Shown here: positions 7,139-42,887 of the stretch, piece after piece
Position numbering within the stretch: the first letter of the stretch is position 1
Layout: each line of letters opens with the position of its first letter
Origin: a virus
Direction: 5' to 3' (one strand)
DNA length: 54,609 bases
Virus record (IMG/VR): IMGVR_UViG_3300031987_000009
Location: 1 to 54,609 of that record
Notes under the pieces: model-generated
Seen by the model: only the letters and a program-made list of their open reading frames with translations
Told to the model about the DNA's origin: nothing
The model's database searches: none
Program-made: the position numbers and the translations under genes

Positions 7139-7642
7139 ATGACTTATACAGCAACAACTGCACAGGAATTTAGACGTAAGAAAGGCACGATGTCACAGAA
7201 GTTAGCAGACGAATTTACGGATATAGATACTGAAATAGATAAAATAAAATCTAAATTTGTTATGCTTACATCATCTGATATAACCGAAGCAACTACTGGA
7301 ATTGATTTAGCAAGTGGTTCTGATATTACACAATATGGTGTATTCGTAGCACCTGTTGACATAACTGTTGTTTCAATGAAAGATTATCTTACAGAAGCAT
7401 ATGTAAAAGATACAGTCGATGCTAAAATAGAAATATACGATGATGCAGTCACACCTAACAAAATCTTTGGTAGAACTTTGGATGGAACAGGTGAAGATGC
7501 TGCAACATTTACTTCTACTAATCCAGAAACAGACGAAGAAAACATAACAGCAGGCACAAGATTAGACCTTAAAGCCGTTAACACTGCATCAAGTTCTGGT
7601 ACTGGACATGCAATTGTTATGATTGAATATATCGAACAATGA
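7139..7642 (+). CDS. Virion structural protein with beta-rich C-terminus
   Basis: A 167-residue protein. The first 40 residues are helical (RRKKGTMSQKLADEF), the rest is beta-rich with many Thr and Asp. It follows the capsid gene and uses AGGAG with ATG. It may be a second decoration or a spike protein. No family identified. Confidence 0.65.
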   Translation: MTYTATTAQEFRRKKGTMSQKLADEFTDIDTEIDKIKSKFVMLTSSDITEATTGIDLASGSDITQYGVFVAPVDITVVSMKDYLTEAYVKDTVDAKIEIYDDAVTPNKIFGRTLDGTGEDAATFTSTNPETDEENITAGTRLDLKAVNTASSSGTGHAIVMIEYIEQ

Positions 7643-18992: not shown

Positions 18993-19484
18993 TCAGCCAT
19001 CACAATTACACCTCACCAAAGTATCTATTAAACCATCTATTTCCGATTGTCCATTTTCAAGTAGATGATATGGTAGTCTAATATATACATTCGGTAATAG
19101 ATATTCAAGTTCATATATATGCATCATGTCATCAAAAAATATGACATAATCATAATCTCTTGCAAGTTTGTTAACAGTATCTATTTTATACCTACCCATT
19201 TCTTGATAAAACCATTTACTACCACCTATGTGATTCATCATCTCTTGTATTGTCAAGCAGTAATCACGACAGTACACACGACAACCATACTCACGTTCTA
19301 ACTGCGTCTGTAACAACGGATGTCTATTTGTAACTATTACTTTATCTGTATTAATATCCTTAAACAGTGACATCATAACGCTAATGTCGTTATGCACTGG
19401 TTTCAGATACATTGAGTAAGCATCCTTCTGTCTGTCTGGACTAACGATTGTGTCATCTAAATCAAAAATAAAAAGTGTATCCAT
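18993..19484 (-). CDS. HAD-superfamily phosphatase
   Basis: A 163-residue protein with motif I DLDDT at the start, motif II VTN followed by RHP, a Lys region, and motif IV IFFDD. It is probably a small Mg-dependent phosphatase acting on nucleotides or polynucleotide ends. The ATG at 19484 (TAATG overlap with the methyltransferase stop, GAGGTG upstream) is preferred over the upstream in-frame start. It is the last gene of the leftward operon. Confidence 0.75.
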   Translation of the reverse strand: MDTLFIFDLDDTIVSPDRQKDAYSMYLKPVHNDISVMMSLFKDINTDKVIVTNRHPLLQTQLEREYGCRVYCRDYCLTIQEMMNHIGGSKWFYQEMGRYKIDTVNKLARDYDYVIFFDDMMHIYELEYLLPNVYIRLPYHLLENGQSEIDGLIDTLVRCNCDG

Positions 19485-20314
19485 TAAATACACCTCATGT
19501 TTTTAAATATATGCTCAATCACACCTACTGTCCATGCATTACCTAACATCTTATATCTCTGAGTAGTGCTTGCCATATCTGTGTAACCATCTGGTAGATT
19601 TTGTAATCTTTCACATTCAATTGGTGACAATTTCCTTATTCCATCATCTGTACTTATATAATTACCATTCCATGATGCATACTGTCTCGCTGTCATACAT
19701 ATTGCTTTTTCTTTATCCAATGATGAATAACATTTCTGTAATTGATAATCTTTATTTTTATCCCACCACTTCTTATGTGATTCAGTTAACCAACAATCGG
19801 TTGGGTTATCTTCCAAAACATCATTGAGTTTGATACCTAAATCTGTTGGTTGTTCAACATTTGGTATGTTAGTCCAATACATTCTTGGTCTACTCTGTGC
19901 GGATACAAGTGATGAATTTATTTCAATTGGTTCGACACCAATAGTTTCTGTTATCACATCCATATATTCTTTTTTCATTCTGACATTCTCTAACATGAAA
20001 TAGGTTGGGTTGCACTCGTTTAATATTCTTGCATACTCAAAAAATAATTTTGATTTAGGGTCTTCAAAATTCAAATGTTTACCGATATATGAAAACCCTT
20101 GACATGGACTACCGCCAATTAATAAATCTATTTTTGGTAACTCTGAACAATCAATATCTCTAACATCACCCAATTGTATTGTATCTGGATAATTTGATTG
20201 TGTCACCTTTATAGCATGTTTATCTATTTCAGATGCAAAGTAATTATCCACATCTATTCCAGCACGTTCTAACGCAACTTGTCCACATGATATTCCATCA
20301 AATAAACTCAACAC
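19484..20314 (-). CDS. DNA (cytosine-5) methyltransferase
   Basis: A 276-residue enzyme with C5-methyltransferase motifs in order: LSLFDGISCGQVAL (motif I, SAM), IGGSPCQGFSYIG (motif IV with catalytic Cys), FMLENVR (motif VI), AQSRPRMYW (motif VIII), then LSPIECERLQNLPDGYT and KMLGNAWTVGV (IX-X). The start is GTG with GGTGAT upstream. It probably protects viral DNA from host restriction. No partner endonuclease lies beside it. Confidence 0.9.
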   Translation of the reverse strand: MLSLFDGISCGQVALERAGIDVDNYFASEIDKHAIKVTQSNYPDTIQLGDVRDIDCSELPKIDLLIGGSPCQGFSYIGKHLNFEDPKSKLFFEYARILNECNPTYFMLENVRMKKEYMDVITETIGVEPIEINSSLVSAQSRPRMYWTNIPNVEQPTDLGIKLNDVLEDNPTDCWLTESHKKWWDKNKDYQLQKCYSSLDKEKAICMTARQYASWNGNYISTDDGIRKLSPIECERLQNLPDGYTDMASTTQRYKMLGNAWTVGVIEHIFKNMRCI

Positions 20315-23250: not shown

Positions 23251-25497
23251 TTAATCACATTTGCTATAACCACATGTTCGACATTCTATACAACCACCAG
23301 CGTATGCTAATAATGTACCACAATCAGGGCACAATGTGCCTTTTTTTATGGGTTGTGATTGTTTTTGTATCATGCTCAATGGAGTACCGTCAATATCCTT
23401 TAAAGAACGCCCATTAACATCTAGATTATCATTATCAACATCTTCTTTAAATTCGAGTAATTTGCGTAACATAGAGTCACCACAATTATTTCCTTTACTG
23501 ACAATTTGTCCAGATTTACGAGCATTGCTAAATGAGTTACATGTACCGATACCTTCAAAGGCTTTCTCAATGTTAGATATATTGCCACCTAATCTAAGCA
23601 TACCAGACATTGCTACGGCTATGTTATCAAGTGAACGTTCACAACCACCTTTACCAGAGCGTTTTATCCAAAAATCAAATATTCTGTTATCTATTCTTGA
23701 ATATTCTATAAACATTTTAATTCTACCACATCCAGTATAAATATCTCTATCAGTACTTGCTAAATCGTTCGGCTTTGGTTCCCAATCACCACGTTTTAAT
23801 TCCATACCTATATCTTTATCTTCAGATATATCATTAACTGTAAGTACACCCTCACGTTTGTTACCACTTCTATGCACAGTAACACCTTTGAGACCCATTT
23901 CCCATGCATTGATATATATGTTATATACATCATGAATAGTTGCAGTTTCAGGCAAGTTTATTGTACTACTAATTGCAGCATCGGTATACTTCTGGAATAC
24001 AGATTGTGTCCTAAGCCTATCAACAGGTTCAATATCTGAAGCAGTTACAAGTTCATTACCACGTTCACCAGCATGATTATCAAACCACCATTCAAGGATA
24101 GGTGAGTTAACTTCATATACTTTGTTTTCACCATGTAAACTCTCTGTTCTACGATTATATTTAAATGCAAAGTTAGGTTCAATACCACCAGATATACCAA
24201 GCATTGTACTGATAGTTCCTGTTGGTGCTATGGACATGACTGTAGCGTTAGCCAATCCATATTCACCAATTAACCACTTTGTACTTTCATCAAGTGCATC
24301 TTTGAAAAAATCAGATTTTGCTGTTTTATTATAATCAAATTTTGGGAACAAACAATTATATTTATCAGCATATATAGCACTCGCTTTAAATGCAGCATTT
24401 GTAATCATTCCCATCAATCTGTCAGTAAATTCTATTGCTTCACTTGAACCATATATGTATCCTAATTTAATCAATAGGTCAGCATAACCCATTACACCTA
24501 ATCCTATCTGTCTCCACTTTCTTGCAGTATCACATTGTTCTTCTAAAGGATGCTTTTCAATTCCTTCATCCAATACTTCATTTAATGCATATACTGCATT
24601 TTGTACTATATCTTCAAGTTCAATCCAATCAGGTTCACCTATTGAAATATCATATCCTATGTTTGCTAAATTAATAGAACCTAATAGACAAGCACCACCA
24701 TCAGGCAATCCTTCCTCTCCGCACGGATTACATGAATTTATTTTGTAGTTATCATAAAATTGTAACAGATTATAGTCATTCATTCTATCAATATAAATCA
24801 TACCGGGTTCAGACCAATCCCATGCATTCTCTGCTATATTCCACAGTAATTCATTTGCTTCAACTGTAACTATTGTTTCATCACCTGTATGTCTCCTGAA
24901 CTTCAATGTATGGATTCTGTTGTTAATAGCATTAAAAATGAATTCATTAGAGGCTTCTACACTAATATTACATTTAGTAAGTTCATCTGTATTTGCTTTA
25001 GCATTAATAAATTCAATTATATCTGGATGTTCTGAACTTAATGATAACATCAGTGCACCACGTCTACCATCCTGACCAATGATTTTAGTAGTTTCATTAT
25101 ACAAATTGGCAAATGAAACTACACCACTTGTTACCTTAGCAGCATTGTTTATTTTAGAACCTGCTGGTGCAAGATTGGATAGTGATGTACCACATCCACC
25201 ACCATAACTAAATGTTCTTGCAAGTTTAGAGTTACATTCGTATATACTCTCTAAGTTGTCTTTCGGTGGTGTTAATACATAACAATTACTGTAACTTAGG
25301 CTTCTATCAGTGATACCTCTGTTAGCAAGTATACGACCTGCAAACATGAACTTCTTTTGTTCGATTAACATACGTACACTTTCGTTACCACCGCTAACTC
25401 TATCTAACCATTCATCGAATGATTCATTGTTCTGTCGGTATTTGTTATTCCAAATATCTATACCTAACTGACTATCAAAATATTCTTCAGCAATCAT
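23251..25497 (-). CDS. nrdJ: Adenosylcobalamin-dependent ribonucleotide reductase
   Basis: About 748 residues. Class II landmarks are visible: the N-terminal GRILANRGITDRSLSYSNCY (first active-site Cys), NSCNPCGEEGLPDGGACLLG (loop with NPCGE), IAPTGTISTMLGISGGIEPN, and a C-terminal redox tail CPDCGTLLAYAGGC followed by CRTCGYSKCD. It makes deoxynucleotides for replication using host B12, suited to anaerobic methanogens. ATG 25497 follows GGAGATGATATGG and overlaps the previous stop. Confidence 0.93.
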   Translation of the reverse strand: MIAEEYFDSQLGIDIWNNKYRQNNESFDEWLDRVSGGNESVRMLIEQKKFMFAGRILANRGITDRSLSYSNCYVLTPPKDNLESIYECNSKLARTFSYGGGCGTSLSNLAPAGSKINNAAKVTSGVVSFANLYNETTKIIGQDGRRGALMLSLSSEHPDIIEFINAKANTDELTKCNISVEASNEFIFNAINNRIHTLKFRRHTGDETIVTVEANELLWNIAENAWDWSEPGMIYIDRMNDYNLLQFYDNYKINSCNPCGEEGLPDGGACLLGSINLANIGYDISIGEPDWIELEDIVQNAVYALNEVLDEGIEKHPLEEQCDTARKWRQIGLGVMGYADLLIKLGYIYGSSEAIEFTDRLMGMITNAAFKASAIYADKYNCLFPKFDYNKTAKSDFFKDALDESTKWLIGEYGLANATVMSIAPTGTISTMLGISGGIEPNFAFKYNRRTESLHGENKVYEVNSPILEWWFDNHAGERGNELVTASDIEPVDRLRTQSVFQKYTDAAISSTINLPETATIHDVYNIYINAWEMGLKGVTVHRSGNKREGVLTVNDISEDKDIGMELKRGDWEPKPNDLASTDRDIYTGCGRIKMFIEYSRIDNRIFDFWIKRSGKGGCERSLDNIAVAMSGMLRLGGNISNIEKAFEGIGTCNSFSNARKSGQIVSKGNNCGDSMLRKLLEFKEDVDNDNLDVNGRSLKDIDGTPLSMIQKQSQPIKKGTLCPDCGTLLAYAGGCIECRTCGYSKCD

Positions 25498-26098
25498 CCA
25501 TATCATCTCCTTTCATAATATTACAATATTCTATTATTCTGCTAACATCCATCTTATAATCATCCCACTTATCTATAGTGCTTTTAGATATACTAGCACT
25601 TGATAAATTGTTTACACGACTATTAGGCAATAACCATGCATACAGAATATTTAAATCTTCCCTATTATCGAAGGCTAGACATAAGAAAAAATCGGCGGTA
25701 GTATTTCGCTTTATTATAAATACCCATCCGTTTTTACTGTTGATGCATGCAGATTTTACATCAATCTTCTTACCTTTGTTACATATGAAATCATATCCTT
25801 TGTTTCCATAAGGCATCAATTCCACATCTTTGAATGTTTTTGATAGCACACGCTCAGCGACATGTACACCCAAAAATTGTGTACATGATTTATTCTCGCC
25901 CATAGATTTGCCACCATTTCGGTAATACCTATTTCTTACGGATTTATTTGAACGCTCTTTATTATTATTCCTCCATGCACGACCTTCCTCTTTATCACAT
26001 GTCTTACATATTCTACTATTTCGCTCTGCATGAGATTTTAACCAATTAGACCTTACTGAAAGAGAGCATCCACATTTCCTACATTCTTCTGCTTTCAT
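25487..26098 (-). CDS. Zinc-finger nuclease-like protein, paralogue A
   Basis: A 203-residue protein. N-terminal CRKCGCSLS and CKTCDKEEGR form a zinc finger; the centre has GYDFICNKGKKIDVKSAC, a D...(D/E)xK-like core; the C-terminus continues with FIIKRNTTADFFLCLAFDNR. A paralogue at 31902 shares all three parts. The design suggests a PD-(D/E)xK endonuclease, possibly a free-standing homing endonuclease inserted between early genes. Confidence 0.7.
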   Translation of the reverse strand: MKAEECRKCGCSLSVRSNWLKSHAERNSRICKTCDKEEGRAWRNNNKERSNKSVRNRYYRNGGKSMGENKSCTQFLGVHVAERVLSKTFKDVELMPYGNKGYDFICNKGKKIDVKSACINSKNGWVFIIKRNTTADFFLCLAFDNREDLNILYAWLLPNSRVNNLSSASISKSTIDKWDDYKMDVSRIIEYCNIMKGDDMDDC

Positions 26099-29089: not shown

Positions 29090-29242
29090 TTAATCACCAT
29101 TATGTAAAGCACATTGTTTTATTATATTTCCTTTATTTTCGATTATATCAGTTATCATCACCTGTCCACCCATACTTGTTGCTTCAACCTTCAGTTGAAC
29201 TTTGCAACCACATTCTAATATTGTCTCTGTTGTAAAAGTCAT
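29090..29242 (-). CDS. Small Cys-containing protein
   Basis: 50 residues from the ATG after GAGGTAACAAA: MTFTTETILECGCKVQLKVE. CGC and a later CALH may bind metal. Overlaps the methyltransferase stop by ATGA. Confidence 0.65.
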   Translation of the reverse strand: MTFTTETILECGCKVQLKVEATSMGGQVMITDIIENKGNIIKQCALHNGD

Positions 29243-29994
29243 TTTGTTACCTCTGATATTCGATCCAATATCATCTTGCAATAGTCATCTTCTTTCTCTA
29301 TTAATATAAAGTTTCTGTTTGTGTTGATACATGCTACACCTGTTGTACCACTTCCAGCACAATTATCCAATACCAAATCACCTTCATTAGAGTATGTTTT
29401 AATTAAATATTCAAACAATTCAATTGGTTTTTGTGTTGGATGAACTGTTTTTGAAGCACTCTTAAAATTCAATACACTTGTTGGGTAATTTGTATACTTT
29501 TGTACACGTTTCTCTTTATGTGACGGTCTTGCAAATTTATGTCCTTTACTATCTGCTTCACAATCACGCTTACCATTAACAACTTTGTTATACAACTTTA
29601 ATCCTTGTGGGTTATATTCAGCCCTTAATTTACATCCGTTTGCACAACTACCTTTGCTGAATACAAGTACAGATTCATGTTTATTCATTGGTTTGTGTTT
29701 TGCATTGGTAAAACCACATGCTCTACTTTTAACCCATATCCACTCATATTTAAACATATTTGGGTTACTCATAACCAATGCACTTGTGAACGGTTGCATT
29801 GCTGTCAACACTATAGCACCACTGTCTTTTATTATTCTTTTGTATTGTAACCACAGTTCATCAAACGGAATAACCGTGTCCCATTTGCATGACGTTGTTC
29901 CATAAGGCAAGTCACATAGAACCATGTCTATACTGTTATCATCTATGTCATTCATTACATCTAAACAATCTCCATTTATCAACGTATTAATCAT
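29239..29994 (-). CDS. DNA N6-adenine (or N4-cytosine) methyltransferase
   Basis: 251 residues. MVLCDLPYGTTSCKWD has motif IV (DLPYG) ahead of the SAM motif VLDNCAGSGTTGVAC, the order of beta-class enzymes; TVHPTQKPIELFEYLI is the conserved motif X region. It methylates a short DNA site, probably to evade restriction. Its start overlaps the stop of a nuclease-like gene, so the two may form a pair. Confidence 0.9.
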   Translation of the reverse strand: MINTLINGDCLDVMNDIDDNSIDMVLCDLPYGTTSCKWDTVIPFDELWLQYKRIIKDSGAIVLTAMQPFTSALVMSNPNMFKYEWIWVKSRACGFTNAKHKPMNKHESVLVFSKGSCANGCKLRAEYNPQGLKLYNKVVNGKRDCEADSKGHKFARPSHKEKRVQKYTNYPTSVLNFKSASKTVHPTQKPIELFEYLIKTYSNEGDLVLDNCAGSGTTGVACINTNRNFILIEKEDDYCKMILDRISEVTK

Positions 29995-32998: not shown

Positions 32999-33974
32999 TC
33001 AATACACATCCTTTACAAATATCTTCTACTATATTTTTAGACTCTGCTAAAATTCTACTACAACTATACCTATTGTAATGAATCAATGATTTAACATTGC
33101 GTCTGGTTGCTTCAATATCAAAATCCATTTGATTCATAAACACACTTAATATATCTGATTCAGTCATACCACAACAATCACGTAGTTCAGGTACTAATGC
33201 ACATCTTAAGTTATGTCCACCTGTACCGACTGCACTAATATCACCAGTCTAAACTTTCTTTAAACATGGTCTCATTGTAAGCGGTAGCACACCATTAGAA
33301 CAACCTATGTTCAGACAGTTCGAAGAGTGCTTTGTGACACTCTTACACTTACGTTTGTACACACTCGGTATGTATCTGTCTAACTTAAGTTTATGTATAC
33401 AATCACCTGAACTTGTTACGATATGTGACCAGTTATCGTTCTTCTTATTCTTACCAAATGGTAACTTAACTAAATTACCGTATGGTTTAACATCACTTAA
33501 CTTCTTCTGTTTAGGATATACTTCACACTCTATATCACCTATTATTTCCCTACCGAAACTGTATGCATCTGATACGTTAACGTTATCCATGAATATCCAG
33601 ATATGTTTAGACACGCTTGAACCAGATGATTCACATATATAATCTATACCTAACGCTTCAAGTTTTGTAATGATTGTTAACGTATCTAACTCTACATCTG
33701 TCTCATTTTGTTCATCGTTATGATGGTCTATATCAAGACATATCCACTTAACCTTACCGTCTAAACTTATTTGGTATGAACCTATCGTGATTTCACCTGA
33801 TAAGTGTTGAAGTAGTGTGTAAGTATCCAACGGTCTGTCTGACCTACGATACGAACCGTTGTCCTGTTGTATAGCATAGTCATCATAACGATTAACAAAA
33901 TGTTTGTATAACATGTTTAGTTTGTTATCTGATAACTTAATACAATCATCAGATAACTCAAACATCAATGCCAT
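32976..33974 (-). CDS. Archaeo-eukaryotic primase with in-frame TAG
   Basis: ATG 33974 (GTGATAGT upstream). Catalytic motifs WICLDIDHH, then SVSKHIWIF and LVKLPFGKN fit AEP primases. The frame hits TAG at 33249 (codon 242) after MRPCLKKV and continues TGDISAVGTGGHNLRCALVP, then ELRDCCGMTESDILSVF, matching the conserved C-terminal primase helper region (PriCT-like, GGHxxRxALVxEL). RPC and later Cys (SCSRIL, CKGC) could hold an Fe-S or zinc site. Stopping at TAG would remove about 90 residues. Full length 332 codons. Confidence 0.85.
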
Positions 33975-33978
33975 ACTA

Positions 33979-34425
33979 TCACTTGAACTCCACCTCATCA
34001 AAATAACTTATGTTATATTCATCGTATTCTTTAGCCTTAAGTGATTTACTACCGCTATTCCAAAGTGTCCATAAGTCCAATGCATCGAATGTATAAATCT
34101 GGTTTGGTCTACCTCTACCCATTCTACAAAAGACTATTATCATTGGATTTCTACCTGTTAACATAGCATAATCAATTAATCTCTGTAACTGGTGTACACC
34201 ATCTTTGTTGGTAGTGAAATCGTTGTTGAAATTCAAAGCACGTTTACCACGTTTACTTTTTATTTCTAATGCAAGATACCATCGGTTATCACTACTGTCA
34301 ACATTAATGTCACACCATTGGTCAGTAAACCTACCCTGTTTATGTCGATATGATAATGCATTGATACAATTACTATCAAAATAATTATTCAACGCATCAA
34401 CTACATCAGACTCACCGTATCCCAT
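33979..34425 (-). CDS. Hjc-like Holliday-junction resolvase / nuclease
   Basis: 148 residues. GYGESDVVDAL supplies the early Glu, WCDINVDSSDNRWYLALEIK the Asp and the ExK pair (EIKSKRG), and a Gln-rich helix follows (GVHQLQRLIDYA). The order fits archaeal Hjc-like and related PD-(D/E)xK resolvases that cut branched DNA before packaging. It lies directly upstream of the primase gene. Confidence 0.7.
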   Translation of the reverse strand: MGYGESDVVDALNNYFDSNCINALSYRHKQGRFTDQWCDINVDSSDNRWYLALEIKSKRGKRALNFNNDFTTNKDGVHQLQRLIDYAMLTGRNPMIIVFCRMGRGRPNQIYTFDALDLWTLWNSGSKSLKAKEYDEYNISYFDEVEFK

Positions 34426-37462: not shown

Positions 37463-37545
37463 TATGGGTGATGGGAGTCGAACCCATGAACTGCTACCAG
37501 ATATGGTCTTAAGCCATACGCATTTGACCACTTTGCTACACCCAT
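37463..37545 (-). tRNA. tRNA-Leu (anticodon UAA)
   Basis: The minus strand folds as a class II tRNA: acceptor ATGGGTG/CACCCAT, D arm starting GCAAAGTGGTCAAATGC, anticodon stem TATGG/CCATA with loop CTTAAGA (anticodon TAA), a long variable arm, T arm ATGGG-TTCGACT-CCCAT and discriminator A. There is no encoded CCA and no intron. It reads UUA, a frequent codon in this AT-rich virus. A TATA box (TTTAAATAG) lies about 40 bases upstream. Confidence 0.95.
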
Positions 37546-39203: not shown

Positions 39204-39881
39204 TCAATACACAAATACGTTTCCATCTGCTGTTATCTCATTATGTTCTCTGTTAACTTCATATACAATAGGATATTCATAATCCATTAACCATGCTCTC
39301 ATATGTCTAATCATATCTGATGTAATATCCAATGCAATGTATATAATTGCCTTTGCAGTACATCTTGGTTGTTCCTGTTCAGATTGTGGGAAGAAGTATT
39401 GTTGATACTTGTATACTTCATCAGAATTATGAATATCAACCGTAAACACTTGGTAGTATTGACCACCTAATCTACCATCGATAATACATTTCACATCACT
39501 ACTTTTAGCATTACGTAGACACATCTCTCTACTACTAATGGTATCTGTACCTAACATCAATACATCACAATCAAACTTTGTGTCCTTGCCTACACGTTTA
39601 TTAACTGCATTGATTTTGATACCAGTACGTTCTCTCACAATTTCTTGCATAGCACATACCTTAAACATACCAATATGTCTCAAATCAAAGTTCTGGTTAG
39701 GTAGGTTATGTGCTTCAACTTTATCATCATCATATACCGTGATATTCTTAATACCCATTTGTGCAAGGTATAGTACCAAAAATGAACCTATACCACCACA
39801 TCCTACTACTGCAACATTCGTATCACTATACTTATCTGGATTAAACCATTCCATTTGTCGTGTGTATTCTATGCTTGTCAT
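39204..39881 (-). CDS. E1/ThiF-like ubiquitin-activating enzyme
   Basis: 225 residues. The adenylation domain has VAVVGCGGIGSF (nucleotide loop, G27-S33), VYDDDKVEAHNLPNQNF (ATP/Mg-contacting D and N-x-x-x-Q), and PRCTAKAIIYIALDIT, in which C174 fits the E1 catalytic-Cys position. Such enzymes adenylate the C-terminal glycine of ubiquitin-like proteins and pass it on as a thioester. It closes a leftward operon with Ubl, E2-like and JAMM genes. Compact size resembles prokaryotic E1s. Confidence 0.88.
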   Translation of the reverse strand: MTSIEYTRQMEWFNPDKYSDTNVAVVGCGGIGSFLVLYLAQMGIKNITVYDDDKVEAHNLPNQNFDLRHIGMFKVCAMQEIVRERTGIKINAVNKRVGKDTKFDCDVLMLGTDTISSREMCLRNAKSSDVKCIIDGRLGGQYYQVFTVDIHNSDEVYKYQQYFFPQSEQEQPRCTAKAIIYIALDITSDMIRHMRAWLMDYEYPIVYEVNREHNEITADGNVFVY

Positions 39882-39890
39882 GTTATCACT

Positions 39891-40205
39891 TCATTTTATT
39901 TCTTCAATTATATGAAACAGACCAACATGGTCTCCAAAGATAGTGTGTAATCCACCCTTATTTGTACCATAATAATTCAACCATGTTGGCAAACAATCAT
40001 TTATTCGTGCTTTAACAAACTTACCATCAGATGTCATCTCTGTTGGTTCTATTTCAACAAGTTTATTGAATTCACCTGTTCTGAATGGGTTACCACCTAT
40101 CTTACCTATACATCGTTTGCCTAAGTAGTTATTCTGAAACTCAGCCATATCATTATTTGAATACGACATATCTATATCAACACTGTTTATTTCAACTACC
40201 ATCAT
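39891..40205 (-). CDS. Unknown protein of the conjugation operon
   Basis: 104 residues with CIGKIGGNPFRTGEFNKLVE and VKARINDCLPTWLNYYGT; small beta-rich domain. TAATG couples it to the upstream gene and it is followed by the E1 gene. It could be a substrate adaptor or E1 partner; no family recognised. Confidence 0.7.
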   Translation of the reverse strand: MMVVEINSVDIDMSYSNNDMAEFQNNYLGKRCIGKIGGNPFRTGEFNKLVEIEPTEMTSDGKFVKARINDCLPTWLNYYGTNKGGLHTIFGDHVGLFHIIEEIK

Positions 40206-40780
40206 TAATCCTCCATGTTATCAAGTATGTTATATGCACCTATAATCTTATCCTCAAGTATGTTACTCAACACTACAAAATCTGTCATTCTGTAACATAA
40301 TTCTTTCATTACATCAAGTGTCACTTTTGTTCTGTTGTTGTAGATACTATTGAATACTTTACACATATCAAATGAGTGATATACATTGAATTCAAATATA
40401 GATGAACCAGTCTTAATCATAAAATCAATACAGTTATTGTATGTGAATTTTATCAGTGGATTACCAACAATATCACCCATTTTAAACGAATTTCTATTAA
40501 TTGATTTAAATGGATATTGGTTAAAGTAATCAGAATCAATATCCATGTACCCATTCTCTGTTGATAGATTATTTTTATACCCAATAAATATCACTTTCAA
40601 TCTTGTATCAATGTCAAAACCATATGTTTGTAGTCCATTTAAACAATCAGTGTGTATACATGGACTGAACAGTTCATATGGTGTATATTTGCTACCGGAA
40701 TGTGTGAATGCAGATGCTTTAGCATAACTCTTAGCCTCTCTTATCTGGTTTTGAAAGAATTGTTCCATTACATCATCCAT
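40205..40780 (-). CDS. Unknown protein of the conjugation operon
   Basis: 191 residues from ATG 40780 (GGTGATTAAA upstream). It has a helical start (QFFQNQIREAKSYAKASAFT), a middle beta region (RLKVIFIGYKNNLS), Cys in SPCIHTDCLNG and a helical C-terminus. It lies between the JAMM and E1-side genes. PRTRC-type clusters also carry unassigned partners. Function unknown. Confidence 0.7.
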   Translation of the reverse strand: MDDVMEQFFQNQIREAKSYAKASAFTHSGSKYTPYELFSPCIHTDCLNGLQTYGFDIDTRLKVIFIGYKNNLSTENGYMDIDSDYFNQYPFKSINRNSFKMGDIVGNPLIKFTYNNCIDFMIKTGSSIFEFNVYHSFDMCKVFNSIYNNRTKVTLDVMKELCYRMTDFVVLSNILEDKIIGAYNILDNMED

Positions 40781-40785
40781 TTTAA

Positions 40786-41553
40786 TCACCTAAATTGTGA
40801 ATACATTTCAACGAAACTTTCAATGTATTCATCATAATCTTCTTCACTATAATTATGCTTATCCCAATATGCATCAATTTGTTTATCTGTCATTGATTGT
40901 GCTTGTACACCATCCCATTCAAGTACTTCACGTTTGTTACTTGATGTCAACTCAACGTTGTTGTACGTTACAGTTGTTACTTTACTTTTGCCTTTCTTTT
41001 TATAGGTAAACTTCTTCTCACGTATCACACCTTCTGTATTTAACCAATCCATAACTTTTGGACTGTACCATTCTTCAACCATGACATTTACATCATCTAT
41101 CGTTACATGTTCAGGTTCAGAAGTGAACGGTGTGTCTACCAGCATATCAACTCTACCGGTAATTTCTTTCTTTTTATTTACGCATATACTAACGTAATAA
41201 TCATTATTGTAATCCAACCATTTCTCAATGTTATCATCATCGATTGAACTGAAGTTTGTATTCATATTAACATGGCTATGTACCCAACCATTTATTGGTA
41301 CATGAACATCTCTCATCAATGCTTCCGTTAATATATCATCTGTACCATATAATCCTTCATCTTGGTTCTTATCGAAATCACATGTACCACCAGTTACTTC
41401 CTGTGATGGTATAAATATTTCGTCTACTGTAATCATACCATTATCTTTATCAATACTGCAACTCATTAGTGCACCTACTTCAAGTTTACATACACTAACC
41501 ATTGTCCATATATCTGTCCATACATCTCTTGGTATATATATTCCTACTTCCAT
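40786..41553 (-). CDS. JAB/JAMM deubiquitinase-like metalloprotease
   Basis: 255 residues from ATG 41553 (GGAGATGTATAAA upstream). E25 in KLEVGAL and the exact HxH-x7-S-x2-D motif (H92, H94, S102, D105 in GWVHSHVNMNTNFSSIDDD) define an active MPN+ zinc protease. Such enzymes trim or remove ubiquitin-like modifiers; here the substrate is probably the GGG-tailed Ubl encoded upstream. The C-terminal 100 residues (EEWYSPKVMDWLNTEGVIRE and a lysine-rich stretch) are an extra domain. Confidence 0.92.
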   Translation of the reverse strand: MEVGIYIPRDVWTDIWTMVSVCKLEVGALMSCSIDKDNGMITVDEIFIPSQEVTGGTCDFDKNQDEGLYGTDDILTEALMRDVHVPINGWVHSHVNMNTNFSSIDDDNIEKWLDYNNDYYVSICVNKKKEITGRVDMLVDTPFTSEPEHVTIDDVNVMVEEWYSPKVMDWLNTEGVIREKKFTYKKKGKSKVTTVTYNNVELTSSNKREVLEWDGVQAQSMTDKQIDAYWDKHNYSEEDYDEYIESFVEMYSQFR

Positions 41554-41568
41554 TTTATACATCTCCAT

Positions 41569-42474
41569 TTATATTAATTCAAGTGTTTCCATCAAATTAC
41601 GTACGTCATTATGTAATTCAATTTCATTATAGTTTATGTCTACTAACCAATCAACTATGTTCATAATCGTTGCATCAAACACGATGGTTTTGTTGTATGT
41701 ATCATGGCAAATTACTCCATCTATACAATTAAAATCACTAAGTATATCATCCAATTGTCCTTCATAACGTTCTTCTACACCATGTATCTCTGATTTAGCC
41801 CAAGGTATATCAACAGTTGCTCTACAATTACACTCAACACATGTGAAACTATCGAAATCATCACAATCTCTGCAATAACATAACAACTCAAAGCATCCAT
41901 CATGTGTACAGTGACTACATGGATTTACACTTACTGGATTATAAAATGGATTTTCTGCTGACCATTTGCTCATGAAATCACGTAACGATAACATAAACAT
42001 AATTATATCACCGCTTTCTACGTAATCATCAATGATACCAAACGAACCACCCCAACATATATCACCATCACTACTTATGTTTGGATGTACACTATGAAAC
42101 CCACAATTTAATCCATCAGTTGGTAATACTAATAATTGTCCGCCATCAAATAAGCATACCTTATATGGAACAATACTGATATTACAATCTGAGTCATATG
42201 CATCATGTTCTTCATGTACATCTTCAATTCCAGTACAATATATTTCAAAACATTTATCCTCTAAATTATAATCAACACTATTCACGAAATCAAGCATTTG
42301 TAATTCATCACACAATTCATAGAAATCTACTTTAATTTCAATTTCAAGTGAACCATGTCCTTCACGTTTGAAATCCTTTTCGGGTATGTTCATTTGCATT
42401 TGTTTTTTGTCGATGACATTGCCATCATCATCTTCAAAATGATATGTGCATAACGTATCAATTACCAATTTCAT
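41569..42474 (-). CDS. E2-like conjugating protein fused to a Cys-rich module
   Basis: 301 residues. Residues 40-125 are strands; HPNISSDGDICWGG (H130-P-N, C140) is the E2 active-site signature (HPNI...GxIC). A helical stretch follows (MFMLSLRDFMSKWSAENPFY), as in UBC C-terminal helices. Residues 186-217 hold ten Cys plus a His (CSHCTHDGCFELLCYCRDC, then CVECNC), a zinc module not usual in E2. The C-terminus is a further 80-residue domain. It lies between Ubl and JAMM genes. Confidence 0.82.
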   Translation of the reverse strand: MKLVIDTLCTYHFEDDDGNVIDKKQMQMNIPEKDFKREGHGSLEIEIKVDFYELCDELQMLDFVNSVDYNLEDKCFEIYCTGIEDVHEEHDAYDSDCNISIVPYKVCLFDGGQLLVLPTDGLNCGFHSVHPNISSDGDICWGGSFGIIDDYVESGDIIMFMLSLRDFMSKWSAENPFYNPVSVNPCSHCTHDGCFELLCYCRDCDDFDSFTCVECNCRATVDIPWAKSEIHGVEERYEGQLDDILSDFNCIDGVICHDTYNKTIVFDATIMNIVDWLVDINYNEIELHNDVRNLMETLELI

Positions 42475-42499
42475 TTAATCATCTCCATTTAAAAATATT

Positions 42500-42525
42500 A
42501 AATGTGGGTAATTATACCCACATTT
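42500..42525 (-). terminator. Hairpin between Ubl and E2 genes
   Basis: Perfect 11-base arms aaatgtgggta (42500-42510) and its complement (42515-42525) with a four-base loop; on the minus strand TAATATTTTT follows. It looks like a terminator or attenuator that would let Ubl mRNA exceed that of the enzymes. Confidence 0.65.
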
Positions 42526-42528
42526 TAT

Positions 42529-42786
42529 TTATACTATGTGAACATTTGTGGACATACCACCACCAGATTTAGGTGCAGATACCATCACTGCTACTGTTTC
42601 ATCAGATACAATATCCGATGTGTTCTTTACACCATGATTTGTATTGACTGAATCAGCAGTTACATCAAATGCTGCATAGATGACATCGCCATATGTTACA
42701 TCAACTCTGTCAAGTTCTTCTTTGAGTTCATCCATGTTTACAAATTCTCTCTCGTTACCCATACCTACTCTAATTTCTGTTGCCAT
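42529..42786 (-). CDS. Ubiquitin-like modifier with GGG and C-terminal tail
   Basis: 85 residues. Two opening strands (ATEIRVGMGNEREFVNMDEL), a helix (DELKEELDRV) and further strands (VIYAAFDVTADSV, ETVAVMVSAPK) fit a beta-grasp fold. G75-G77 are followed by eight residues MSTNVHIV, so the protein would need trimming, which a JAMM protease could do. No Cys or extra domain. AAAGGAGAAATGAACA precedes ATG. It is the first gene of the operon, as in many modifier systems. Confidence 0.72.
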   Translation of the reverse strand: MATEIRVGMGNEREFVNMDELKEELDRVDVTYGDVIYAAFDVTADSVNTNHGVKNTSDIVSDETVAVMVSAPKSGGGMSTNVHIV

Positions 42787-42887
42787 TTGTTCATTTCTCC
42801 TTTAGTTCTTATGGATAGTATACATTGGCATTAATTGTGCTAAAATCAATGCATACATACCTTTCACAAAAATAAAAGAGATGATGA
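42787..42887. other. Leader region of the Ubl gene
   Basis: This short region holds an 18-codon open frame on the minus strand, 42858-42802 (MYALILAQLMPMYTIHKN), with only a weak site upstream. It may be a leader peptide or chance. No clear BRE/TATA was seen, so the operon promoter is not located. Confidence 0.25.

Follow-up and report, generated by a model that had tools for sequence, protein, structure and literature searches.

Prokaryotic conjugation of ubiquitin-like proteins (Ubls) is known mainly from cellular systems, including anti-phage defence. The anti-phage system Bil (BilABCD) combines a Ubl, an E2, a JAB protease and an E1, and the archaeal SAMP system has no E2. Here we describe an operon at 39204-42786, on the minus strand, of a 54,609-base IMG/VR virus (record IMGVR_UViG_3300031987_000009); the whole of this analysed stretch is called the window. 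The parts of the operon are assigned to the prokaryotic Ubl-E2-JAB-E1 kind of Iyer et al. 2006, and we put at roughly three in four the probability that they form a complete virus-encoded ubiquitin-like conjugation cascade.

The window possesses the four-part set of Bil, which other types share and which is therefore not discriminating; Bil is an anti-phage system, whereas the window operon is encoded by a virus. No model bearing the Bil name turned up among the hits of the window and sister (see below) proteins. Similar to the type 6d or PRTRC cluster of Iyer et al. 2006, Ubl, JAB, E1 and E2 are encoded by separate genes. The ubiquitin operon of Caldiarchaeum (CsUb, E1, E2, RING, Rpn11) shares with the window an E2 of the HPN (His-Pro-Asn) type with a catalytic Cys, and an Rpn11-like JAMM protease. 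CsRpn11 cuts its own ubiquitin precursor exactly after Gly-Gly (PMC6043591), and this processing is comparable to that of the window Ubl, where cleavage is predicted from sequence. Unlike the Caldiarchaeum operon, the window operon has no separate RING gene recognised by Pfam among its six ORFs, possesses a minimal E1 of 225 aa and is viral.

An earlier note on this DNA had claimed six open reading frames (ORFs) for this region, and all six were found in their places on the minus strand, in the order Ubl-E2-JAB-X-Y-E1. The features are:

42529..42786, minus strand: Ubl candidate, 85 aa; position as in relatives, weak profile match
42500..42525, minus strand: perfect 11-bp hairpin, then U-rich sequence; between the Ubl stop and the E2 start
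41569..42474, minus strand: E2-like conjugating enzyme, 301 aa; HPN and Cys140, family profile to UBE2L3
41785..41937, minus strand: Cys-rich E2 extension, putatively zinc-binding; CxxC...CxCxxC...CxxC
40786..41568, minus strand: JAMM/JAB metalloprotease, 260 aa; JAMM signature, profile to Rpn11-type
40205..40789, minus strand: gene X, 194 aa, no assigned family; insertion between JAB and E1
39891..40205, minus strand: gene Y, 104 aa, no assigned family; insertion between JAB and E1
39204..39881, minus strand: E1-like activating enzyme of the ThiF fold, 225 aa; Pfam ThiF

A syntenic virus with the operon (L150, hereafter the sister) is present as a 46,711-base contig in a metagenome-assembled genome (MAG) of the Methanosarcinaceae. 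In the window, the E2 stop and the JAB start are contiguous (41568/41569), JAB and X overlap by 4 nt, and X and Y by 1 nt; the Y/E1 overlap is given as about 11 nt, with listed ends of 39891 for Y and 39881 for E1. Gene X matched no family with a meaningful score in Pfam, PHROG, PADLOC and NCBIfam, and no viral relatives of it were found; gene Y matched no Pfam family. The two genes had been counted as parts of the system, which was not borne out. JAB directly adjoins E1 in the sister, and the same two genes abut or overlap in about 60 of 80 relatives, whereas X and Y separate them in the window. Because of the adjacency in the sister, X and Y are classed as insertions that are not core to the predicted conjugation system.

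The core of the E2-like protein covers about residues 42-175, with HPN at 130-132 and a predicted catalytic cysteine, Cys140. H130, P131, C140 and G142 are invariant in 15 aligned relatives. Conservation of Cys140 had been set beforehand as a refuting test, and it survived: the cysteine is present in all 48 distinct E2 sequences, as is G142, and H130 is present in 43. The exact HPN tripeptide was read in the window and the sister, and most other E2s possess HPH or HSH. The window E2 alone gave no Pfam hit, and direct searches with it found no relatives among phages or viral contigs, these being reached via the E1 alone. A 15-sequence E2 profile matched human UBE2L3 in the PDB (E=8e-5), with HPN and the catalytic Cys aligned, and the AlphaFold2 model has an E2-like order of elements and a core with a predicted local distance difference test score (pLDDT) of about 85.

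The E1-like enzyme matched Pfam ThiF (E=4.4e-27). Its glycine-loop, Asp and Lys residues are kept in 95-97 of 97 E1s (G27, G29, D51, D53, N59 and K74 in 97/97, D113 in 96/97), and Cys174 in 83/97. The E1 family profile matches UBA5, MccB, ThiF, Cap2 and BubCD, and the best named models for the window E1 are ThiF/MoeB-like. Together with relatives' Ubls that resemble ThiS and SAMP2 (Ubl family profile to SAMP2, 1.4e-4), these models argue for a sulfur carrier, in which Ubl and E1 would deliver thiocarboxylate sulfur for modifying tRNAs or cofactors, the E2-like protein being otherwise employed. This is very improbable, given an E2-like protein with HPN and an invariant Cys beside the E1; moreover, no thiamine, molybdopterin or thiolation gene was recognised among the genes scanned.

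The JAB protein harbours the complete JAMM signature (E30, HxH 97/99, S107, D110), which is kept in 91-93 of 93 sequences. Single-protein searches were sub-threshold (Prok-JAB 0.0019, PADLOC JAB 2.2e-4), and the family profile matched the archaeal Rpn11-like 6fjv (8.5e-10) and yeast RPN11. The predicted role of JAB is Ubl processing and deconjugation.

The 85-aa protein is probably the Ubl, and this is the weakest link of the reading. It occupies the same operon position as the GG-ending Ubls of 15 relatives, in which the C-terminal GG is followed by 0-3 residues. Its own C-terminus is SGGG and then an 8-residue tail, MSTNVHIV, with the mature end predicted after the glycine run (..KSGGG). With a phage-Ubl profile that excluded the window protein, it was the top-ranked window ORF, weakly (E=0.084). 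Compared with the Ubl profile as a pair, the window and sister Ubls ranked first among 34 ortholog pairs, with P=7e-4 and an alignment of 61 columns that extends to the GG; the runner-up had a raw score close to theirs. In the profile-profile test the window Ubl as a single sequence was outside the top hits, and Foldseek with its low-confidence model found no match.

Several observations weigh against a conjugation cascade. The window Ubl had no significant direct family match in the library searches, Pfam among them, and its AlphaFold model, on which the second refuting test set beforehand (lack of a beta-grasp fold) turned, is of low confidence (pLDDT 57), probably from misregistration of the divergent N-terminus by MAFFT. 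The sister Ubl ends in a single glycine without a tail, and therefore processing by JAB is not needed there. Foldseek with the E2 model listed E2s at E>1 only, which is not significant and probably stems from the half of the chain modelled at low confidence. The equivalent of Cys174 is missing in 14 of the 97 E1s, with one clade of this type. The E1 family also lacks the usual NxxR arginine, having Asn62 in the window and Asn, Gly or Val in nearly all 97.

PRTRC-type clusters had been named as known relatives, and this kinship could not be upheld. The E1 scored 41.5 bits (window) and 37.4 bits (sister) against the cut-off of 144.75 for TIGR03736 (PRTRC_ThiF); for PRTRC_B (TIGR03737, cut-off 131.45) the window E2 gave no match and the sister 15.4 bits. 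The PRTRC-like type 6d E2 is without the classical His and has a conserved downstream His (Iyer et al. 2006), and it is ruled out by HPN in the window E2 and H130 in 43/48. The E1-E2 fusion of type II of the cyclic-oligonucleotide-based anti-phage signalling system (CBASS), or 6A (Cap2-like), was rejected, as the window has separate proteins of 225 and 301 aa; matches of the window proteins to the PADLOC E1-E2 and 6A-MBL models were partial only. The JAB-E1 fusion of type 6e (Bub-like) was likewise rejected, JAB and E1 being separate genes. The archaeal SAMP system (UbaA, HvJAMM1) is similar to the window set in Ubl and JAMM; it was rejected with a window E1 score of 37.9 bits against the cut-off of 450 for the UbaA model NF047750.

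The 83 viral E1 loci sampled were found by the E1 pattern alone, and JAB/E2 pairing was no selection criterion. The E1 searches led to Flavobacterium psychrophilum phages, crAss-like phages and IMG/VR contigs. JAB was present nearby in 81 of the 83 loci, and an E2 could be recognised in 45. The relatives usually possess a JAB gene upstream of E1; beyond it, still farther upstream, come an E2-like gene and a Ubl that is either small or N-terminal. In its order, its catalytic residues and the grouping of its E1 with viral E1s, the window operon falls within this tailed-virus Ubl-E2-JAB-E1 group. The crAss-like phage cr111_1 (gp_23286-23289) and Flavobacterium phage Fpv3 are similar to the window in the order Ubl-E2-JAB-E1, the catalytic residues and the replication-gene surroundings. 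They differ in their putative Ubls of 211 and 289 aa and the HS-type E2 motif; moreover, both lack the Cys-rich E2 extension and have bacterial hosts, whereas the window has the extension and an archaeal host.

The operon genes of cr111_1 and Fpv3 are annotated merely as ThiF, 'metalloprotease domain' or hypothetical. No description of a tailed-phage Ubl-E2-JAB-E1 operon was found in the literature searched, with subscription papers and preprints outside its scope and novelty thus unproven; apparently the operon is undescribed, although it occurs widely among tailed phages, cultured Flavobacterium and crAss-like phages among them. The earlier note had called the set unusual, which stands for archaeal viruses and not for tailed bacteriophages, where the operon is common. 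Among the other operon carriers, TFIIB as a marker of archaeal viruses gave a weak match in L004 alone, and the archaeal portal family gave weak matches in L001, L008 and L015 only. Contig L004 (6805-8823) is likely from an archaeal virus, with a TFIIB-like gene and ribonucleotide reductase; its E1 is Cys-less, its JAB is separate and no E2 was recognisable.

In the E1 tree, the window and the sister form one branch (100/100) in an 18-row clade (96/90) of viral and bacterial MAG contigs. All E2s with a Cys-rich extension lie within this clade: seven Cys are invariant across the window, the sister, L002, L014 and L015, and CxxC arrays were also found in the E2s of L003, L008, L016, L027 and L153. 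From this distribution the extension is taken as a shared derived feature of the clade. It may bind zinc, and it might act as a built-in E3. Pfam gave no match to the extension, as a known RING or otherwise, and detected no RING gene among the six window ORFs. Because the window E1 groups with a viral and bacterial MAG clade sharing Cys-rich E2s, the archaeal viruses probably obtained the operon from a common tailed-virus pool and not from their own host.

That a full Ubl, E2, JAB and E1 set resides in a tailed archaeal virus, as had been proposed, is supported by the portal, by spacers of clustered regularly interspaced short palindromic repeats (CRISPR) and by the sister. The window portal matched 56 phage records, fifty-five of which correspond to haloarchaeal tailed viruses. 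Identity between window and sister is 62% for the terminase, 53% for the portal and 47-63% for neighbouring capsid-region proteins, and in the operon 45% for E1, 35% for JAB and 29% for the E2 core. One Methanosarcinaceae genome (G062) carries CRISPR arrays with the repeat GTTATAATCAGACCTTAGAGGGATTGAAAT. One of these arrays has 84 spacers, of which 23 match the window, ten of them full-length without mismatch; a shuffled window gave 0. Spacers of this and other arrays fall in the operon, within JAB (41393-41427), E2 (42146-42181 and 42425-42461) and at the Ubl start (42758-42793). Because of these spacers and the sister in a MAG of the family, the host is firmly assigned to the Methanosarcinaceae or their close relatives.

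The G062 arrays rich in window-matching spacers, dozens altogether, are located at C17:3500-8000 (L193), C25 (L199) and C13 (L194, L200). Another Methanosarcinaceae genome (G056:C4:130566-130740) harbours 175 nt that are 75% identical to window 7289-7464, possibly from a provirus relative.

Bacterial Bil reportedly tags phage proteins (Hoer et al. 2024, as cited in PMC12660748). By mechanistic analogy, the virus would tag proteins of competing viruses in superinfection exclusion, and judging by the host arrays, viruses of this group attack very often. We consider this unlikely, as the location of the operon in a replication block does not specifically favour it and no competitor target is known. 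The host family also possesses an E1 (1.2e-18 in G062) and a JAMM protein (8.3e-10 in G062) of its own; among 112 Methanosarcinaceae genomes, a close relative of the window E1 was found only in that of the sister, the others being MoeB/ThiF-like at 1e-19 or weaker. Host enzymes of this type would fit counter-defence, in which JAB would strip host Ubl or SAMP tags while the Ubl, E1 and E2 of the virus serve as competitor or decoy. Borg elements of methane-oxidising archaea are in line with it, as they encode many putative deSAMPylases for which a role against host tagging has been suggested (PMC12660748). Nevertheless, an eraser needs no E1, E2 or Ubl, full catalytic sets are retained family-wide and JAB is found close to its own E1 at 81 of 83 loci, which makes counter-defence improbable.

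The leftward block around the operon contains replication and nucleotide-metabolism genes, and the rightward terminase-portal-capsid-tail block is located at 1-18.4 kb. In crAss-like and Flavobacterium phages, the operon has genes for a primase, a uracil-DNA glycosylase or a reductase in its vicinity. Lambda tail-assembly proteins contain Ubl and JAB domains, and a role in virion assembly or maturation was proposed for them (PMC1779556); here, the Ubl would then modify structural proteins. Such a role is distinctly unlikely, since the window operon lies in the replication block away from the structural genes, and the arrangement is similar in crAss-like and Flavobacterium phages. Because of the replication and nucleotide-gene context in the window and two distant phage groups, we tentatively favour, at somewhat below even odds, a role early in infection, in which host or rival proteins are modified, rather than virion maturation.

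Between Ubl and E2, the hairpin and U-rich sequence are predicted with z of -3.3 to -4.1. The sister has at the same place a hairpin of different sequence with a U-run (z -1.3, not significant alone). Possibly the hairpin is a partial terminator (attenuator) that would yield more Ubl than enzymes. The minus-strand genes are tightly packed from E2 to E1. One leftward transcript had been suggested, and the hairpin with its U-rich sequence makes this uncertain between Ubl and E2.

Elsewhere in the window, a 497-aa protein of the replication block had no viral relatives in the searches, and a primase-like protein (33249-34001) matches AEP-TOTE, the archaeo-eukaryotic primase of the TOTE conflict system (6e-21). 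Two DNA methyltransferases (19484-20314 and 29239-29994) are present, one of the C5-cytosine and one of the N6/N4 type. In the sister, ribonucleotide reductase is encoded by two ORFs about 690 nt apart (G001:C12:23814-26876, L176); both match the single window gene 23251-25506, and an intron or intein-like insertion is possible. The calcineurin-like phosphoesterase gene (411-1187) belongs to the rightward arm in the window and is inverted in the leftward block of the sister. A viral tRNA-Leu (TAA) was found at 37463-37545 on the minus strand, and the sister possesses tRNA-Thr instead.

The gene set, its order, the conserved catalytic residues, the virus and the host are given by the DNA itself, and from them we infer the enzymatic steps, timing and targets. 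JAB would trim the Ubl after the glycine run, and E1 would adenylate the exposed glycine and bind the Ubl in a thioester linkage, probably at Cys174. From there the Ubl would be passed on to Cys140 of the E2, assisted by the HPN motif, and attached by the E2 to lysines of target proteins; the Cys-rich module possibly helps to select substrates, standing in for a separate E3. JAB would also reverse conjugation. The operon would be expressed early, with host or rival-virus proteins modified during takeover, and it is retained in the sister although the E1s are 45% identical. It is doubtful, as a wider proposal, that early tagging of host proteins (in archaea perhaps for the host proteasome) represents a common unrecognised takeover or conflict module of tailed viruses, both bacterial and archaeal, with the E2 zinc module as built-in E3.

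If the cascade is real, viruses too would use protein tagging as a tool, with an intact cascade in divergent archaeal viruses and in tailed phages. The question of what a viral ubiquitin-like system modifies would become testable in existing phage-host pairs. An E2 with a canonical HPN and a fused Cys-rich module would also bear on how E1-E2-E3 cascades arose.

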